A stretch of 35,971 nucleotides of DNA from a virus: positions 1-35,971 of the IMG/VR virus record IMGVR_UViG_3300030118_003663; one strand, 5' to 3'. This document shows, one piece after another, positions 13,506 to 23,048 of the stretch. Position numbers and translations under genes: made by a program. Every line of letters begins with the position of its first letter. Position 1 is the stretch's first letter. The notes beneath the pieces are model-generated. The model made no database searches. It was given only the letters and a program-made list of their open reading frames with translations, and was not told the DNA's origin.

Positions 13506-13513
13506 TATTTATA
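13506..13513 (-). promoter_or_regulatory. T4-type late promoter TATAAATA
   Basis: An exact match to the T4 late promoter box TATAAATA on the minus strand overlaps the stop codon of the upstream gene. It would start transcription about 6 nt further on, close to 13500, just at a hairpin. It fits late expression of the structural gene starting at 13398. There is no -35 element, as expected for gp55/gp33-dependent promoters. Confidence 0.7.
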
Positions 13514-15476
13514 TGGATTCTTTATCTTTTTGATAATGTTTCCGTACAAACCTAATACCTATTGATTCCTCATTAAAATTTTCTACTAATCCGTAGTCAT
13601 CAAGGACATCCATAACTTCGTCTTTTGGCATACCTTCTTTTTTGGCTTTGGCCATGATACCATCCATCCACTTCTTCTTGGCACGTTTGTCCATCTTTTT
13701 CCATTTGGATTGGATTTTCTTTGCATCATTGTCTATCCACGCTTCATTGACAACGGCTTCACCCATCATCTTTTCAAGTTCTTCTTTATCTTTGGCATCA
13801 AGGTCTGCTTCTTTCTTCTTCATTGTTCCATACTTCTTCATGAAACCTTTTGTAACCATGTCAATTTTTCTCTTGTTTGGTCTGTCACCTTTTTGGATCT
13901 TACCACCTTTTGCAAGAAATGCTTTGATCTGGTCTTCGTAGTCAGATGCCTTTTCTTCAATCTCAACTTCTTCACCCATCGTCTTCAGAAGGTAATCTCT
14001 TGGATCTGTGTCTAAAGTTTTGATGAATTTCAATGCACCTTTTTTGTCACCCTTCTTCAACATGGAAGCAGCTTTCATCATGTCTTTTTTGTCAATACCA
14101 CCATGTTTTTTTGCATAGGTTTCTATGTCATCAGCAGCCATTTTCATCTGTAGTGCTGGACTCTCTTCAATTTCTTCATTTGCCAAATCTGTCTTTTGAA
14201 ACCCTTGAGATGCTTTCTTGTCCCTGAGTTTCTTAAACATCTTTAGACGATCCTTTGTCTTTTGGTCAGCCTTCTCTTCAATCTCTTGTTCTACATCTTC
14301 TTTCATTTTATCAAGATGTTTCTTGATTCTCTTTGATTGACCAAGATGTGTCTGAGATGCTTTCTCTAACTCCTTCACTATCTTTTCAAGGTCTTCATCT
14401 TCCTTGACAGGTTTTCCGCCTTTAGAAATGATTCCATTCATTCCTTCTCCCTTGACTTGTGCAAGGAATTTCTTGGCATCATCTAAAGTCTTAAATGCAC
14501 TGACTTTGATTGGACCCTTCTTTGAAGATGCATACTTGACCTCAAACTTTTCTTCAATCTCAACTTCCTCAATGTACATATTGAGTTCGTATCGTTTGTT
14601 GTCTAAGTTTGCAACTTGGACATGGAGTTTTTGTCTCTTATCTGTACCAAGGATGTATCGGTTTGTTTTACCCATTGAAGGTTTTTTTGGACCAGTTGCA
14701 ACTTTATTGTCAATCTCGTCTGGATCTACTGTGTATCCTTTTTTCTTTGCATGCGCATATGCATGTTGCATTGCTGCAGAGAAGGTTTTATGGTAGAGTT
14801 CATAGTCTGAACCTTTTTTTTCGTCAACATGATCCATTGCACCACACTCACCACAATGTTCATCTATCTGTGTATTTTCGTAGACTTTCCTGAGTGCCTC
14901 GGCCCACATACCTCTATGATGTGGATTTCTTGAGATACTTTCCATCTTTGGTCTGGTATCTACTGGTGTTTCTTTACCACTTTCAGCTTCTGTTGCATCT
15001 GGTTCTTCTTCGTCATCCATCTCATCTTCTGCTTTGTCTTTGAGTTTTTGAACCACTAAGTCAGCAATTTTGTCAAGTTGATCAGAGGACATTCCTGCAT
15101 CATCGTCATCGTCATCATCCATTTCTGGTTCATCATCTTCTTTTTGTGAGTTCATTCTAGCTTTGACTCTATCGCCAAGATCCATATCTTCTTCTTGTTC
15201 CTCATCATCCATCTTTTTTGCAATTTTCTTACCTACACTCTTATCTTTCAACGTAACAGGATACATCTTTCCAGAGCCAGGGGGAAACTCAAATTCTTTT
15301 TTTCCATCTGCAGCTGCTTGTGCTACAGCACCCATGAAGTCTGCATTATCTTCAGTTGCATCTACTTCTTTTTCTTTGAGTTTTTTCTGAACCTCTCGCA
15401 TCATACGAGCATGTTCTCTCTTTTGTTGTTTATCTTGTTTGATTATGTCGGCAATGACATTGAGAACATCAGCCAT
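13509..15476 (-). CDS. Modular internal-head or scaffold-like protein with repeated IEE sites
   Basis: The 655-residue, highly charged protein has a helical N-terminus (MADVLNVIADIIKQDKQQKR). A very acidic middle follows (residues 116-127 nearly all D), with CGECGAMDH near 208-216. The globular segment YELYHKTFSAAMQHAYAHAK to about residue 300 recurs in marine phages, as I remember. The C-terminal half is a string of small lysine-rich modules separated by near-identical spacers: EEVEIEEK (302-310), EQEIEEK (397-402), EEIEES (434-439), EEVEIEEK (502-509). Each spacer contains I-E-E, a good fit to the [LI]-x-E site of T4 prohead protease gp21. Neighbours carry capsid-targeting-like leaders. I infer an internal head protein cut into pieces during maturation; scaffold is the alternative. 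Confidence 0.65.
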   Translation of the reverse strand: MADVLNVIADIIKQDKQQKREHARMMREVQKKLKEKEVDATEDNADFMGAVAQAAADGKKEFEFPPGSGKMYPVTLKDKSVGKKIAKKMDDEEQEEDMDLGDRVKARMNSQKEDDEPEMDDDDDDDAGMSSDQLDKIADLVVQKLKDKAEDEMDDEEEPDATEAESGKETPVDTRPKMESISRNPHHRGMWAEALRKVYENTQIDEHCGECGAMDHVDEKKGSDYELYHKTFSAAMQHAYAHAKKKGYTVDPDEIDNKVATGPKKPSMGKTNRYILGTDKRQKLHVQVANLDNKRYELNMYIEEVEIEEKFEVKYASSKKGPIKVSAFKTLDDAKKFLAQVKGEGMNGIISKGGKPVKEDEDLEKIVKELEKASQTHLGQSKRIKKHLDKMKEDVEQEIEEKADQKTKDRLKMFKKLRDKKASQGFQKTDLANEEIEESPALQMKMAADDIETYAKKHGGIDKKDMMKAASMLKKGDKKGALKFIKTLDTDPRDYLLKTMGEEVEIEEKASDYEDQIKAFLAKGGKIQKGDRPNKRKIDMVTKGFMKKYGTMKKKEADLDAKDKEELEKMMGEAVVNEAWIDNDAKKIQSKWKKMDKRAKKKWMDGIMAKAKKEGMPKDEVMDVLDDYGLVENFNEESIGIRFVRKHYQKDKESI

Positions 15477-15627
15477 CGGTTTTCTCCTGTTCAGTTTCTT
15501 TTACTTCAGTTTGAGGTGGTTCTTCCTCTTTTTTACCAGACATAATATCTAATGCAGCCTTACTAACATTTTTAAGGTCACTAAATGCTGATTTACCAAA
15601 ATATTTTGGATCTGTAGATGGTGACAT
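15469..15627 (-). CDS. Small acidic-tailed protein, unknown
   Basis: The 52-residue protein begins MSPSTDPKYFGKSAFSDLKN and ends in a charged tail (KKEEEPPQTEVKETEQEKTDG). The ATG shares a base with the TGA of the adenylyltransferase-like gene (TGATG), and its own 3' end overlaps the start of the modular protein by 8 nt. These overlaps on both sides make it convincing despite its size. A ribosome site for the next gene (CAGGAG) lies inside its last codons. The function is unknown. The small acidic prohead core proteins of T4 are a loose comparison only. Confidence 0.65.
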   Translation of the reverse strand: MSPSTDPKYFGKSAFSDLKNVSKAALDIMSGKKEEEPPQTEVKETEQEKTDG

Positions 15628-16895
15628 CACTTCCTTTCTGGTTTATACTCTGATACCAGTGCCGTAAGAGTTGGCGCTAGCATTGAAAACTTTTGTTGTA
15701 TCGTGAGGACATCAATACCTTGTTCCATTGCCCTCTGAATAATCTTATCTGCTTCTCTTTTAGACAAATTAAGTTTATCCATTATATATTTTACAACTTT
15801 ATTCATGGATTCTTTAACTGTTTCGTCTTGGCCTGGTGTATCTTTTGTGTAAATCACTAAGGATGGATAATCACCACGTTCAATAGTTTCTTGAATCTCA
15901 CTAATATATTTATAAATAAATGAATTGTCAAAGACATCTGAATTATTGACATTGGCCATAAAACGAGTGTATTTGTTGACAAGTTGTTCCATGAAGAACA
16001 AATCTTTTTCGTTTATCTTTTTGACTTTTTGCAATTTATTTCTTATGTCAAGAAACTCATCAAGGACCATTACAGCTTCTTTAAGATAAAATTCATCTTT
16101 TTTACTAAGACCACTAAGAGAGTTGACCATCTCATCAAGCATATTAAATGCATGTGTTGAGTGATGTAGATGAGATGTAGTGAAAGAACCAACTGTAATC
16201 TGGTGTGTCTTGTCAAGAGTAATCTGTTCTACTACGGATTCAGTCTCAAAGTCAATCTCTTTCCATTTCTTGCCTTCTTTGACCACATCTAACTTCATAC
16301 CCTTACGAATATCATTAAACATTTTCTTTGTGTCAGCATCAGAAAGAGATGGTGGAGTACCCATACGAAATGACTTGAAATCTCCATCCACAGCAGCTGC
16401 CCTCATCTTTGATGCAGACATTCCCTCTACACCCTCGGCATCTGGATCACGTTCACCTGCACTTACGACATCAATATTGTCAAAGTCATAGAATCCATGT
16501 TTCTTTTCTTCACCATTGTAGGTCTGTAATAATTTTTTAAAGTCTTGAACTCTATCACTACCAACGACCATGACAAGATTGGTATATTTTTTCTTGTTGT
16601 ATAATTCTACGGCAACGTCAAGAGCAGTTTTGGCATTACTTGAAATGATGTTCCTTGAAAACTTAGAGAACATCTTCTTCATGTATTTAATTTTAGTATT
16701 TCTATCAAGAGGATTCTTTTTAGGGTCTTGGGATTGACTTGGATAGACAAAGAAATCTCCACCCCTCTGTCTTGCCACAGATTGAACTGCAATAATCAAC
16801 TTCTCGTGGCCAACTGTAGGTGGATTGAATCTTCCAAAGGTGAACACTGCTGTATCACCTTTTCTTTCTGTCATAAATCTTTGGTAGGTTTTCAT
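15627..16895 (-). CDS. Nucleotidyltransferase like NMN adenylyltransferase, with capsid-targeting-like leader
   Basis: The 422-residue protein has a HIGH-superfamily nucleotidyltransferase domain. Residues 18-30 read FTFGRFNPPTVGH (the H/T-x-x-H nucleotide site), VVGSDRVQDF is near 110, and GMSASKMR at 158-165 matches the ISST-x-x-R-type motif. NMN and nicotinate mononucleotide adenylyltransferases, which make NAD from NMN and ATP, share this layout, as do cytidylyltransferases. The C-terminal 200 residues, with HHSTHAFNMLDEM and a LSKREADKIIQRAMEQGI end, form an unknown helical domain. The N-terminus MKTYQRFMTE matches the T4 IPIII capsid-targeting sequence as I remember it (MKTYQEFIAE) in 7 of 10 positions. 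NAD rescue on entry is an attractive inference. Confidence 0.75.
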   Translation of the reverse strand: MKTYQRFMTERKGDTAVFTFGRFNPPTVGHEKLIIAVQSVARQRGGDFFVYPSQSQDPKKNPLDRNTKIKYMKKMFSKFSRNIISSNAKTALDVAVELYNKKKYTNLVMVVGSDRVQDFKKLLQTYNGEEKKHGFYDFDNIDVVSAGERDPDAEGVEGMSASKMRAAAVDGDFKSFRMGTPPSLSDADTKKMFNDIRKGMKLDVVKEGKKWKEIDFETESVVEQITLDKTHQITVGSFTTSHLHHSTHAFNMLDEMVNSLSGLSKKDEFYLKEAVMVLDEFLDIRNKLQKVKKINEKDLFFMEQLVNKYTRFMANVNNSDVFDNSFIYKYISEIQETIERGDYPSLVIYTKDTPGQDETVKESMNKVVKYIMDKLNLSKREADKIIQRAMEQGIDVLTIQQKFSMLAPTLTALVSEYKPERK

Positions 16896-17392
16896 TACTC
16901 TTCCATTGAATTAGGATACCAATCTGGTAAAGGTTTTGATTTGATTCGTGCTGCATATTCCTTTTTGGCCTGTTCTTTGTTGACTTTAATTTTACCATCT
17001 ACTAAGTCTTTTACGAACCCCAAAGTGGCAGCATTTGCATAGAGTGAACCACATCGTGCAGTAACTTCCATCTTCAATCCATCGTAAATTATACTTCCCG
17101 AAGCATGACCAAGAATATCCAACATCTCAGTTGGAACTTTCATTTTCATAGTTGAATAGACGTAATCTCTGTGAGGTGCAGGAAAATCATGTGGAATACT
17201 TTCATCTATAACCCAAACTTCATTAAAAGGTGGTTCAATAGAATTCCAGCTTAAACGAGTTTCAGTCATCTCATCTGGTTCACCAAAAACCTTAACCATT
17301 TTCTCTGCATACAATCTTGCATCTTCAAATCTCCAATTCTTTGTGATTTCAGAAGACTTTTGTTCTTTTAAATAATTATTAAAGGTTTTCAC
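16895..17392 (-). CDS. Unknown protein with MKTF...LKE leader
   Basis: The 165-residue protein starts MKTFNNYLKEQKSSE, with an L-x-E site at residues 8-10. The mature part would start with a helix (WRFEDARLYAEKMVKVFGEP) and continue as a mixed alpha/beta domain with PHRDYVYSTMKMKVP and CGSLYANAATLGFVKDLVDG. The end is lysine-rich. I do not recognise the fold. Its stop overlaps the ATG of the adenylyltransferase-like gene (TAATG), linking the two in translation. The leader suggests head packaging. Confidence 0.7.
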   Translation of the reverse strand: MKTFNNYLKEQKSSEITKNWRFEDARLYAEKMVKVFGEPDEMTETRLSWNSIEPPFNEVWVIDESIPHDFPAPHRDYVYSTMKMKVPTEMLDILGHASGSIIYDGLKMEVTARCGSLYANAATLGFVKDLVDGKIKVNKEQAKKEYAARIKSKPLPDWYPNSMEE

Positions 17393-17709
17393 GCTGAACC
17401 TCCGTATTTTTTTGATTTGACTTTTTTACCTTTATTTTCTCCACCTGTTCTGGCAATCTTACCTTTGGCCTTACAGTGTGCTTTACATGAGAAACCTTTT
17501 GGTGCATTACAGTTACAATGACTCATATCCTTTTCTTCAAATGCCATAACCCTTGTACCAGTTGAGTTGAGTTTTACTTTTTTCAGATTAAAATGTTTTC
17601 TGATATACTCTGCAGCATCTTTTACTGAGATGAGGTGACTCATACCCTTGATAAAAGAATTTATCTGCTGAGTAGTTGGTTTTCCATAAAACTCATGAAA
17701 CTGGATCAT
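17389..17709 (-). CDS. Small cysteine-containing basic protein
   Basis: The protein is 106 residues from the ATG at 17709, chosen because it overlaps the upstream stop as ATGA. The ORF extends five codons further upstream without such support. The N-terminal half is helical (QQINSFIKGMSHLI, SVKDAAEYIRKHF). The second half holds SHCNCNAPKGFSCKAHCKAK, with four cysteines and a histidine that could bind a metal ion, then a K/G-rich tail. The start MIQFHEF resembles the leader family but has no clear L-x-E site. A nucleic-acid-binding role is only suggested by charge. Confidence 0.65.
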   Translation of the reverse strand: MIQFHEFYGKPTTQQINSFIKGMSHLISVKDAAEYIRKHFNLKKVKLNSTGTRVMAFEEKDMSHCNCNAPKGFSCKAHCKAKGKIARTGGENKGKKVKSKKYGGSA

Positions 17710-18542
17710 TTTCTTTTCTTCCACAAATCTGCATCTGCTTTACGTGCACCACCACCTGTGATGAAACTATTGACTCTGGCAAATGCCCATTGTTGAGGTG
17801 TAGTGCCTGGTCTGTGACCTGTTCTCCAAGCTGCCATACCCCTGTCATATACCTTCTTCAATATACCATAAGAGATACCTGACTTCTCGGCCTTCTTTAC
17901 AAGTCCTTTGATTTTCTCATTCAAGTTTTCCTCTTTCATAGGTTTCATTCCAAGTTTCTTACGATAGACATTCACTTGTTTGATTAACTCTTTCTGATCT
18001 GGTGAATTCGGAATGGCTTTCATTGCCTTGGTTGTGAGTTTCATCATCATAGCTTTATCACTTTTATTCTCACCAAACATCTTTTTATACTTCAATGTAT
18101 GTTTAGATGGTTTGGTCTTGGCACTTTTGTCGCCTGGTGCTGGTTTGTATGCCGCTGGGTTGTCATCGTCCATCTTTGCACCTTTTTCAAAATGTCTTGC
18201 TCTTGCCTGTTTGGTGGACTTTGACTTTACACCCTTATAATATTTTGCAGGTTGTGTACCCTCTCTGTCTTCAACATCGTCATCCTGTGCAACTTTTCTC
18301 TGGTGACTTCCCTCGTCAAATTTTAAATCATAGTTGTATGCAACCACACCAGAAGACATCTTTCTGAGATACACATGGATAGTCGTACTACCTGTGTGGT
18401 GAGGAAAAGTAAAGGCAGGTTTGGTCTTTTTCATTTTATAGTCATCGGTCGCATTGACAACCTGTTTTGCCAGTCTTCTCTTCTTTATTTCGTCAGCAAC
18501 ATATTGGTCTGTCCTGTCGTCATACTCTTTAAAGTTTATCAT
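17706..18542 (-). CDS. Two-domain phage protein (DUF5824-like N-terminal part)
   Basis: The 278-residue basic protein begins MINFKEYDDRTDQYVADEIK. Its first domain ends with AKYYKGVKSKSTKQARARHF, which I associate with DUF5824 of large phages. A charged linker leads to a helical middle (NSPDQKELIKQVNVYRKKLG) containing the L-N-E-K run. The C-terminal domain (KAEKSGISYGILKKVYDRGM, AAWRTGHRPG, QWAFARVNSFITGGGARKAD) also recurs in many phage and prophage proteins. The function of both is unknown to me. It lies inside the late cluster of leader-bearing genes and overlaps both neighbours by ATGA, so it may be part of the same packaged set. Confidence 0.7.
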   Translation of the reverse strand: MINFKEYDDRTDQYVADEIKKRRLAKQVVNATDDYKMKKTKPAFTFPHHTGSTTIHVYLRKMSSGVVAYNYDLKFDEGSHQRKVAQDDDVEDREGTQPAKYYKGVKSKSTKQARARHFEKGAKMDDDNPAAYKPAPGDKSAKTKPSKHTLKYKKMFGENKSDKAMMMKLTTKAMKAIPNSPDQKELIKQVNVYRKKLGMKPMKEENLNEKIKGLVKKAEKSGISYGILKKVYDRGMAAWRTGHRPGTTPQQWAFARVNSFITGGGARKADADLWKKRK

Positions 18543-18802: not shown

Positions 18803-19347
18803 TACCAGAAACCATTTGGATTGTCAACAGAAAGACCAAGTTCCTTTGCATATCTTGGAAGTCTACAAGCCCAATAAGATGGCTTGGTTTTATCATTCCT
18901 TGTATCACACTTATGTCTGGCTGCAAAACTCCTTCTGGCTTCAGGATCATTTATTTTTACTTTCAATCCAGTAGTATCACCCCAAGTAACTTTCTTTATG
19001 TTTTGAGTCTTTGGATCTCTAACATAGACATAGTATTTTTTGGGGCCACCTCTCTTTGGTTTATTCAATTCAACATGATCATCTTCTAACAATGGTAAGT
19101 CCAGAGGCACTTCTTCTCCTTCATATAAGGCAAACTCACCAATATCTGTATTCAGAAACATCACTTCTTCTGCTTGTGGCATGTATTCACCTTCTTCATA
19201 CAGTTCTCTAACCTTCTTAAACAAATTGAAGAAGTTTTCAGAATACATACGGAAAACACTCTGAGTAAGTGGTATTTCGTTATCTACATGATACTTGACA
19301 GCTTCATCAAGTACAATCTCATTGTCGTGTTCTATGAATGTTTTCAT
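18802..19347 (-). CDS. Phage protein with conserved C-terminal ARH...C...YW.C domain
   Basis: The 181-residue protein starts MKTFIEHDNEIVLDEAVKYH. The opening is leader-like, with an L-x-E site at residues 13-15. The middle is acidic. The C-terminal 80 residues (KKYYVYVRDPKTQNIKKVTW, then ARRSFAARHKCDTRNDKTKP and SYWACRLPRY) form a compact basic domain that I have seen in many T4-like marine phage proteins. The spaced H, C, C and C residues could bind a metal. No function is known to me. It sits between the ligase-like gene and the cupin, with short overlaps on both sides. Confidence 0.7.
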   Translation of the reverse strand: MKTFIEHDNEIVLDEAVKYHVDNEIPLTQSVFRMYSENFFNLFKKVRELYEEGEYMPQAEEVMFLNTDIGEFALYEGEEVPLDLPLLEDDHVELNKPKRGGPKKYYVYVRDPKTQNIKKVTWGDTTGLKVKINDPEARRSFAARHKCDTRNDKTKPSYWACRLPRYAKELGLSVDNPNGFW

Positions 19348-20558
19348 TTAGTCCAATTCTTTGCCGCATTAAAGTTTGCTCTTGAGAACTCAAGTCTATC
19401 AACCAACTTTACTGCCTTACCTAATTTGTCTATAGCAACAAAACCCTCTGGTTGTGTAACCTTATATCCATTTTCTGTACGGATGAAAAGGTCCATAAGT
19501 CCTTTTGATTTTTCTAACTTACGAATCACCATCTCTTTGGCATCCACCAGAAGATTTTGCATGTCAAATATTTTTACCAACTGTGAAGAATTTGAACGAA
19601 ACTCTTTCATAAGTCTGTCCATATTCAATTGCTTAATTTTCTTGTTTTGTGGTCTTTTTACTTTGTCAACTTCTTTTTTTAACTTATCATAAACATATTC
19701 AATTAGACCTTTTGTGTGCATTCTGGTGTTTGTTATTTTTTGCCCAGTTCTGACTTTTGTATTGTTATAGGTCTTTATCATTATGTTAATATCGTCATTC
19801 TGAGAAATCATATTTAAGAATTCAGAATTTAGAGTATGAAATGTTTTTCCTGCTTGAGACAATACCTTGGTAATGGCAGTGGTTTCAGTCTTATTGAAAT
19901 TAATACTACCAGATGTGTCTCTATACTCTGCATCTGAATACCATACATCAGAAGTTTTTGCCAAACCTCTGAGGTTGACGGAGAATGACGCAGACATATC
20001 CTCCATCGTTTTTCCGCTATAAGTTGTGTGAAAAACGATCCCCATTTTGGAAGACAATATCCGCTGTGCACTCTCCATCGGAACCGCATATACAATCGTG
20101 TTCGGTTGGAAAGTCACATATTGTTTTCCATCTATTGTTTTATTTTCTAAGTCTTCTTGAGTGAACATCATGTCACCCTGAAGTACATCTTTAATACCTA
20201 ACTTGGACAGTTCAGTGAGTGCTACCTTGAGTTTTTGGTTAAGACCGCTTGATGGATGGTTCCTATCAATGTCATCATGAGAATAGTTGATCTTCGCGTT
20301 CTTGTTGAACACGCCTTTAGTGCCCACAAAGAACTGGCCATTCTCAGGGTTAATACCCGCGAAGATGGCTGGGGCGCCATCCCACTTTACTGTCACGTTG
20401 ACACTGGACTTTGACGATCCGGCCAACATATCTCGTAGGGACTGTAAATAGTTGATAGCAGATCGAGTCCCTACTACACCATTATTTAGAACTTCATCTT
20501 CCAGATGTTCTAAATGTAAGTTTTTTTCTTCTGTTAGGAATCCTGCAAAACTATGCAC
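19344..20558 (-). CDS. Ligase-superfamily nucleotidyltransferase (DNA/RNA ligase fold) with capsid-targeting-like leader
   Basis: The 404-residue protein carries the signature motifs of covalent nucleotidyltransferases. Motif I is K58-W-D-G61-A-P with lysine 58 as the expected AMP acceptor. FFVGTKGVF follows at 76-84, a motif III-like DVLQGDMMFT at 124-133, motif IV E371-G-F-V, and motif V KAVKLVD at 381-387. These enzymes seal nicks in DNA or RNA, or cap RNA. The sequence resembles the DUF6267 group of marine phages, as I recall it. RNA rather than DNA as substrate is inference. The N-terminus MHSFAGFLTE ends in an L-x-E site, so the enzyme may be packaged in the head. It overlaps the next gene in the cluster by 4 nt. 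Confidence 0.75.
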   Translation of the reverse strand: MHSFAGFLTEEKNLHLEHLEDEVLNNGVVGTRSAINYLQSLRDMLAGSSKSSVNVTVKWDGAPAIFAGINPENGQFFVGTKGVFNKNAKINYSHDDIDRNHPSSGLNQKLKVALTELSKLGIKDVLQGDMMFTQEDLENKTIDGKQYVTFQPNTIVYAVPMESAQRILSSKMGIVFHTTYSGKTMEDMSASFSVNLRGLAKTSDVWYSDAEYRDTSGSINFNKTETTAITKVLSQAGKTFHTLNSEFLNMISQNDDINIMIKTYNNTKVRTGQKITNTRMHTKGLIEYVYDKLKKEVDKVKRPQNKKIKQLNMDRLMKEFRSNSSQLVKIFDMQNLLVDAKEMVIRKLEKSKGLMDLFIRTENGYKVTQPEGFVAIDKLGKAVKLVDRLEFSRANFNAAKNWTK

Positions 20559-22390: not shown

Positions 22391-22398
22391 TATTTATA
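22391..22398 (-). promoter_or_regulatory. T4-type late promoter TATAAATA
   Basis: An exact TATAAATA box on the minus strand lies in the short gap between the 22400-22738 gene and the ATG at 22356. The predicted start is about 30 nt before the ATG, with GGAG between. It would drive the cluster of leader-bearing genes late in infection, which suits proteins that are packaged into heads. Confidence 0.75.
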
Positions 22399-22399
22399 A

Positions 22400-22738
22400 T
22401 TAAACGGCCGTAGGTTCAGGCGGATCGTTGTCTCTACTTACTTTTTCTGCAGTTTGAATGAATACATCTGGGGAGAGATCATGCCAACCTATAGTAACAC
22501 CTTCAACCATTTGTTCACCAAATATATTGCCGAACTGGTCTTCCATGATATAGACAGGATCTTTTTGTGTGTGGAATTTATCTGTGAGTAAGATACAATG
22601 AACCATCACACCTAACTCTGGATAGATGTAATACTTGCCTGGTTCAAAGGTCAAGGCGGGAGGAAACTCTTTCTTCTTTTCCTGTTTCTTTTTACGAAAG
22701 TCAGCAAGACTGACTACGTTCTCATTCTGTCGGCTCAC
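22400..22738 (-). CDS. Conserved marine T4-like phage protein, unknown
   Basis: The 112-residue protein has a charged N-terminal helix (VVSLADFRKKKQEKKKEFPP). A beta-rich part follows with LTFEPGKYYIYPELGVMVHC and DPVYIMEDQFGNIFGEQMV. I recall this as a common companion of clpS in T4-like marine phages, without a known function. It overlaps clpS by 17 nt, and the late promoter for the next gene lies right after its stop, so it should end the uvsX-gp41 operon. Confidence 0.65.
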   Translation of the reverse strand: MSRQNENVVSLADFRKKKQEKKKEFPPALTFEPGKYYIYPELGVMVHCILLTDKFHTQKDPVYIMEDQFGNIFGEQMVEGVTIGWHDLSPDVFIQTAEKVSRDNDPPEPTAV

Positions 22739-23048
22739 CTGTTATCTTTAGTGGATAGTCGTTTTCTTTTGCAAGTTCCATGACCTCATACACTTTTTGT
22801 TCTGCAATCTGGTAGTCATAGATACCTGCAACTGCAGCCCCTAACTTGTGTACTTCAAACATGATTGAATCTGCCTCTGCCTGTGATTTGTTGAAATATG
22901 CCACCAAAGTCCAAGAAACAAACTCCATCGGTGTAAAGTCATCATTATGATAGATAACCTTAAACTTTCTTGGTGGTTTTGGTGGTTGTTTTTTCTTTTT
23001 GGGTGGCCTGTCTATGACATCTATGCCACCCTTTTTGTCTGTGCTCAT
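22722..23048 (-). CDS. clpS: ClpS-like adaptor of the Clp protease
   Basis: The 108-residue protein has a disordered basic start (RPPKKKKQPPKPPRK) and then the ClpS core: YHNDDFTPMEFVSWTLVAYF, the MFEVHKLGAAVAGIYDYQIA helix-strand, and EQKVYEVMELAKENDYPL. In bacteria ClpS binds ClpA and delivers N-degron substrates to ClpAP. A phage copy could redirect host proteolysis during infection; clpS genes are known in marine cyanophages. The core residues look intact. It overlaps the oxygenase gene by 4 nt. Confidence 0.9.
   Translation of the reverse strand: MSTDKKGGIDVIDRPPKKKKQPPKPPRKFKVIYHNDDFTPMEFVSWTLVAYFNKSQAEADSIMFEVHKLGAAVAGIYDYQIAEQKVYEVMELAKENDYPLKITGEPTE

Follow-up and report, generated by a model that had tools for sequence, protein, structure and literature searches.

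To our knowledge, most of what is known about internal head proteins comes from T4 and a small number of giant phages, in which each gene provides one cargo. Among the closest counterparts of the gene described here are the T4 internal head proteins IPI, IPII, IPIII, and Alt, which carry a short N-terminal capsid-targeting sequence (CTS) and are cut by gp21 after L/I-x-E; neighbours of this gene have starts (MKTYQRFMTE, MKTFNNYLKE, and MHSFAGFLTE) that resemble the T4 sequence MKTYQEFIAE. In T4, however, each internal protein gene provides one cargo and one N-terminal cut, whereas this gene encodes about seven modules with predicted internal sites, and its modules, unlike the T4 internal proteins, are exchanged between genes and phages. 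Precursors from which peptides are released at several gp21 sites are also described, namely T4 gp22 and gp67 (PMC9026906), but these belong to a conserved scaffold the fragments of which mostly exit the head, whereas the cutting predicted here would yield recurring and variable domains. In SPN3US and phiKZ, ejection proteins are processed by a gp21-like prohead protease, with multiple cuts after A-x-E in head proteins and many proteins packaged for ejection (PMC10052503), although the multiple cuts fall within N-terminal propeptides and leave one mature protein, and no shuffled string of modules has been described for them. Lastly, the polyvalent proteins (Iyer et al. 2017, PMC5512222) are multidomain, are predicted to be delivered together with the DNA, and have been compared to polyproteins; they contain recognisable enzymatic domains and are released by embedded peptidases, in contrast to the small and mostly unassigned modules found here, for which release by the head protease is predicted. 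Enzymatic or LPD domains of the polyvalent type and embedded peptidases are absent from the present protein in Pfam and PHROGs searches, which return only a sub-threshold SutA-RBD match, and LPD22 gives a weak match in one of 57 relatives. Precursors with several gp21 sites and CTS-borne cargo are each already known separately, whereas a swapped string of cargo is, as far as the literature was searched, without a previous description, and neither CTSs nor cargo polyproteins are described for cyanophages in that literature.

The window, i.e., the whole stretch of 35,971 nucleotides that was analysed, covers 36 kb of a 37,025-bp virus record, itself a fragment, without head genes, from an uncultured phage. 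The modular ORF (13509..15476, minus strand) encodes 655 aa from an ATG start in a frame without interruption, and genes for a family B DNA polymerase, a UvsX-like recombinase, and a DnaB-like helicase lie on the same strand. The order helicase, hypothetical protein, DUF6267 protein, cytidyltransferase, and modular protein recurs, with some other genes interspersed, in the Kyanoviridae isolates Methylophilales phage Melnitz, Pelagibacter phage HTVC008M, and S-SZBM1, the modular gene of Melnitz being CDS 20 (L030:14038-15426); in phage C48C1 the DUF6267, cytidyltransferase, and modular genes are grouped, and in S-CREM2 a cytidylyltransferase gene and a modular gene occur in a somewhat different arrangement. 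A 461-aa neighbour does not align with the S-layer-like protein of HTVC008M and was ruled out as its homologue. The window also encodes a ClpS-like Clp protease adaptor (22722-23048, minus strand), and eight exact TATAAATA octamers, which are T4 late-promoter-like, are present on the coding strand, including those at 22391-22398, 15907-15914, and 13506-13513 of the minus strand; one is just 5' of the 20551-22356 gene and one is at the end of the modular ORF.

Targeting and processing of T4 IPII and IPIII depend on residues 4, 7, 8, and 10 of their CTSs (PMC9026906). A pattern derived from these two proteins and defined over the N-terminal 10 residues, with aromatic residues at 4 and 7, an aliphatic residue at 8, and E at 10, occurs at four gene starts of the window against 0.08 expected, all on the minus strand. 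Specifically, the cytidyltransferase-like gene (15627..16895) starts with the T4-like CTS MKTYQRFMTE|, the 165-aa gene next to it (16895..17392, GTG start) with the CTS-like MKTFNNYLKE|, the DUF6267 gene (19344..20558, GTG start) with the CTS-like MHSFAGFLTE|, and a CCA-adding tRNA nucleotidyltransferase-like gene (1389-2603, GTG start) with a T4-like CTS (MRFSQFLKE), so that the last product may be a tRNA-repair enzyme that travels in the head. The DUF6267 protein has relatives in 468 phage records and no match among PDB sequences, and its VKWDGAPA resembles the KxDG nucleotidyl-transfer motif of ligases. In the viral loci the same pattern is found at 147 starts against 1.2 expected, which is not a count of events, because the loci overlap and share ancestry; it is absent from a further 93 kb of HTVC008M sequence, and a 46-kb stretch of T4 has it only in IPII and IPIII. 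The N-terminus of the modular ORF itself (MADVLNVIADIIK) does not match the T4 CTS pattern.

The modular protein, all features of which are on the minus strand, begins with an acidic part (residues 1-206; 14859..15476; net charge -24) that ends in QIDE|; its closing stretch, GMWAEALRKVYE, looks by eye like the N-termini of other modular proteins (MRYSKSWTEALREV, MTRYNKTMSEALSEV), and this part may have a propeptide or targeting role. The 13-aa mini-module h (HCGECGAMDHVDE; residues 207-219; 14820..14858) follows, and then module A (YELYHK...ELNMYIEEVEIEE; residues 220-309; 14550..14819), with a predicted compact fold, which closes with the spacer EEVEIEE| (residues 303-309; 14550..14570). Modules B (FEVKYASS..., predicted beta-beta-alpha-beta) and C (DLEKIVKELEKASQTHLGQSKR, found too in Synechococcus phages ACG-2014a/b) together span residues 310-401 (14274..14549) up to the end of the spacer EQEIEE| (residues 396-401; 14274..14291), and module D (KADQKTKDRLKMF...; residues 402-438; 14163..14273), which recurs in relatives, closes with NEEIEE| (residues 433-438; 14163..14180). 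Module E (ALQMKMAADDIETYAKKHGGIDKKD...; residues 439-508; 13953..14162) is modelled as helical with a pLDDT of about 71-84, occurs in 63 of 111 modular proteins, and ends in a second EEVEIEE| (residues 502-508; 13953..13973). Module F (SDYEDQIKAFLAKGGKIQK...; residues 509-578; 13743..13952) ends in VVNE|, module G (AWIDNDAKK...DDYGLVE|; residues 579-632; 13581..13742) recurs in one related locus (L019) and as a partial copy in another (L026), and a C-terminal tail covers residues 633-655 (13512..13580). Beyond the I-E-E spacers, likely boundaries lie at 206 (QIDE|HCGEC), 219 (HVDE|KKG), and 632 (GLVE|N). The segments past residue 219, whose termini are predicted, have a net charge of 0 to +4 and contain 18-30% K/R.

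I-E-E ends at residues 304, 309, 401, 438, and 508, the last four of which had been located in the initial annotation; shuffles of the 655-aa protein contain 0.36 copies on average, and none of 5000 reaches five. Likewise, the exact repeat EEVEIEEK, present in two copies (303-310 and 502-509), appears in none of 2000 shuffles. To call all four spacers near-identical goes too far: EEVEIEEK is shared exactly by two of them, but the other two, EQEIEEK and NEEIEES, have only the EIEE core in common with these. The module lengths of 92, 37, 70, and 147 residues given by the initial annotation are correct, and the extra cut that it suspected near 578 (VVNE|AWIDNDA) gains support from L019, where the AWIDNDA module stands behind a different V-x-E. 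The proposed agreement of I-E-E with the gp21 rule also holds, T4 gp21 being known to cut after L/I-X-E (PMC9026906). In these spacers D/E prevails at P2 and K is frequent at P1', which differs from FLTE|A and FIAE|A. The total of [LI]-x-E tripeptides in the 655-aa protein, 8 against 7.0 by chance, is not elevated and was discarded as evidence; the signal is thus in the form and placement of the spacers.

A whole-protein scan of viral contigs finds homologous modules in 27 of them (27 loci), and such modules are present in Melnitz phages as well. Two additional scans with modules A and E yield 111 non-redundant modular proteins, in which 67 distinct architectures are recognised on the basis of 20 hand-picked modules defined by eye, a count that varies with the choice of modules, some proteins being cut by contig ends. 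These proteins are modular, and their modules, bounded by L/I-x-E, are shuffled. Module A is encoded by 358 viral contigs and is present in 80 of the 111 proteins. The order h-A-B-C-D-E-F-G of the window becomes X-V-B-Z-E-F-W-A-R in L001, V-F-A-E-D-X in L005, and X-W-E-A-C-F-M-h-B in L053, and modules B and E, about 90% identical, enclose a Cys-rich insert in L001 and L002, another insert in L003, and C and D in the window. Modules are gained, lost, and swapped among relatives while the [LI]-x-E spacers are retained, as the initial annotation had foreseen, and the lack of spacer conservation that it had named as a refutation did not occur. A recurrent module termed CW (CWxGYxxVGxKKKGxxMVPNCV) is found directly after the starts MISFKQYLE|A and MKTFKQYVE|A in small ORFs of two loci (L185, L153). 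A module around MRKPGEEGAPES in L017:6660-9077 recurs in T7-like cyanophages and other podoviruses, phages that are not known to have a gp21-type protease.

Homologous stretches of at least 30 aa with at least 70% identity and unrelated flanks define 519 homology boundaries in 98 proteins. With no motif assumed, L-x-E comes first in enrichment among all X-x-Y patterns at these boundaries (z 14.4, a value that assumes independence, although related sequences are not independent), followed by E-x-V, which is part of EEVE, and then by I-x-E. [LI]-x-E is present within 3 aa at 25% of boundaries, where 7.5% would be expected (3.4x), and the control patterns [LI]-x-K, [LI]-x-D, and A-x-E show no enrichment at the 519 boundaries. 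The peak of right-hand boundaries falls immediately after [VIL][DENQ]E, with 33 at offset 0, and [VIL]-x-E is found within 6 aa at about 52% of boundaries, i.e., not at all of them. A looser first set (50% identity) gives the same signal in diluted form, the stricter set having been picked after seeing the data. At the level of single modules, module A has the motif within 14 aa in 42 of 46 diverged contexts against a background of 26%, and in some relatives it directly follows the N-terminal MKSFKNFIE|A or MKSFKQIRE|A. The DUF5824 module, which in the window stands behind NLNE| in the gene of module S (SDKAMMMKLTTK...; 17706..18542, minus strand), is found behind cytidyltransferase-like sequence, inside modular proteins, and alone, and an [LIVMF]-x-E ends between 5 and 10 residues ahead of its anchor in 33 of 34 contexts, sometimes within an N-terminal CTS-like sequence such as MKFKNHVINE. 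Modules CW (11/20) and the EF-hand-like X (0/5 directly behind the motif) fit poorly.

These data bear on the alternative that the product of the ORF is an internal or structural protein of several shuffled domains that stays whole, its E-rich spacers being flexible linkers. The spacers are acidic and, as expected of linkers, mostly of low confidence in a structure model built on a shallow alignment: those at 305-309, 433-438, 503-509, and 578 are in or beside low-confidence stretches, the one at 396-401 is within a medium-confidence helix, and modules B and E are predicted ordered islands. Generic linkers, however, do not need L/I-x-E, whereas the HCGEC mini-module is preceded by [ILM]-x-E in 14/14 contexts, with P1 always E, P3 always I, L, or M, and varied upstream residues and codons. 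Moreover, before DUF5824 and module A the internal spacers interchange with N-terminal CTS-like sites, and a protein that stays whole is accordingly considered unlikely.

Less probable still is that the spacer is mainly a DNA recombination handle, in which GAAGAAGTTGAA(C/A)TTGATGAA-like repeats drive exchange and the encoded peptide is functionless. Inside one ORF, spacers share the same codon in 87% of comparisons, where codon usage predicts 57%, with GAA, GTT, and GAT dominating, so that part of the spacer conservation reflects copying at the DNA level and exchange via spacer DNA is plausible too. Against a purely nucleotidic role, unrelated DNA encodes L/I-x-E before one and the same module, HCGEC being found behind ATA TTA GAA, ATG AAC GAG, CTC GAT GAG, and ATC CAA GAA. 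Recombination as a second function of the spacer is compatible with cleavage of the same sequence.

Among 12 longer records that encode a modular protein, 8 carry a gp21 homologue (E 1e-64 or better), including every one of the seven of at least 130 kb, and a gp23 homologue is likewise present, including in all seven of these module-bearing records; the conserved gp23 site reads LLSE|A, FLTE|A, or LLTE|A in two module-bearing records and S-CREM2, and FLTE|A in T4. Orthologues of the cytidyltransferase-like protein are found in virions. In S-CREM2, the cytidylyltransferase, with the N-terminus MKNFSSFLTE|A, and the modular protein gp160 were detected, in a set that may include contaminants according to its authors (PMC10665884); S-SZBM1 virions contain the cytidylyltransferase _140 and the product of the next gene, _139 (PMC9146016), and S-SM1 virions a citidylyltransferase (PMC3037559). 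gp160 has modules in common with ACG-2014b gp101, which carries module C of the window, and CW is present in both gp160 and S-SZBM1 _139. That the ORF encodes a scaffold or core protein like gp22 or gp67, the modules being waste fragments that leave the head, is highly improbable, since, although T4 gp22 and gp67 are cut into several mostly departing fragments (PMC9026906) and the first 206 residues are acidic, a gp22 scaffold is annotated separately in HTVC008M, a member of the same family, close relatives differ in module content, unlike a core scaffold, and relatives are found in mature virions.

The reading that we favour, and regard as likely, is that the ORF encodes a head-targeted cargo polyprotein that is cut by the prohead protease and whose modules are exchanged between phages. 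The modular internal-head protein proposed from the outset is supported by the swapped modules, the T4-like CTSs in the cluster, and the presence of relatives in virions, and we infer its cleavage by the prohead protease with good confidence; ejection of the modules is only somewhat favoured over its opposite. In this marine T4-like phage of Kyanoviridae type, the polyprotein would probably be made late, alongside the CTS-bearing neighbour enzymes, and would enter the prohead core. A gp21-type prohead protease would then cut the spacers after L/I/V-x-E and remove the acidic N-terminal part, leaving in the capsid a set of short modules of 13 to about 92 aa, most of them Lys-rich, that would probably leave with the DNA at ejection and may act in the host. 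Since cleavable spacers would flank every module, adding, removing, or reordering one could leave the others unharmed, and near-identical spacer DNA within one genome may offer homology for their exchange.

The 655-aa ORF has no hit above cut-off in PHROGs, Pfam, or NCBIfam and none at all in PHROGs, and modules A, E, and F have no meaningful match in PDB profile searches. Module A gives a compact alpha/beta model (pLDDT 74.5), and the best Foldseek matches to this model, in PDB (E 0.21) and in BFVD (E 0.044), are not significant; the one in BFVD, a weak lead, is a region of a 1134-aa protein named Acb1. Residues 514-529 of module F match SutA-RBD (Pfam PF20661) at 20 bits, below the gathering score of 29.3, and FLAKGGKIQK gives sub-threshold matches to the SutA RNAP-binding domain and PFL_1563; SutA-RBD is matched in 10 of 57 relatives (best E 1.4e-6), and the FLxxGGxI motif occurs in 8 modular proteins against 0.08 in shuffles. 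A SutA-like RNA-polymerase binder is a lead only. Tentatively, and with less confidence than the polyprotein itself, the modules can be regarded as evolvable cassettes, in which the spacers serve both as protease sites and as DNA homology handles, and through which a phage-specific cocktail of effector peptides for takeover or counter-defence, one of them possibly acting at RNA polymerase, would be injected with the CTS-tagged enzymes (CCA-adding, cytidyltransferase-like, and DUF6267).

If the polyprotein reading is true, a single gene may supply the particle with a mixture of peptides for delivery to the host, and the start of a module after L/I-x-E or after an N-terminus of the MKxFxxF[LI]xE type would provide a sequence rule for injected phage proteins. 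The recurring modules would then form a catalogue of candidate host-takeover and counter-defence factors in widespread marine myophages.
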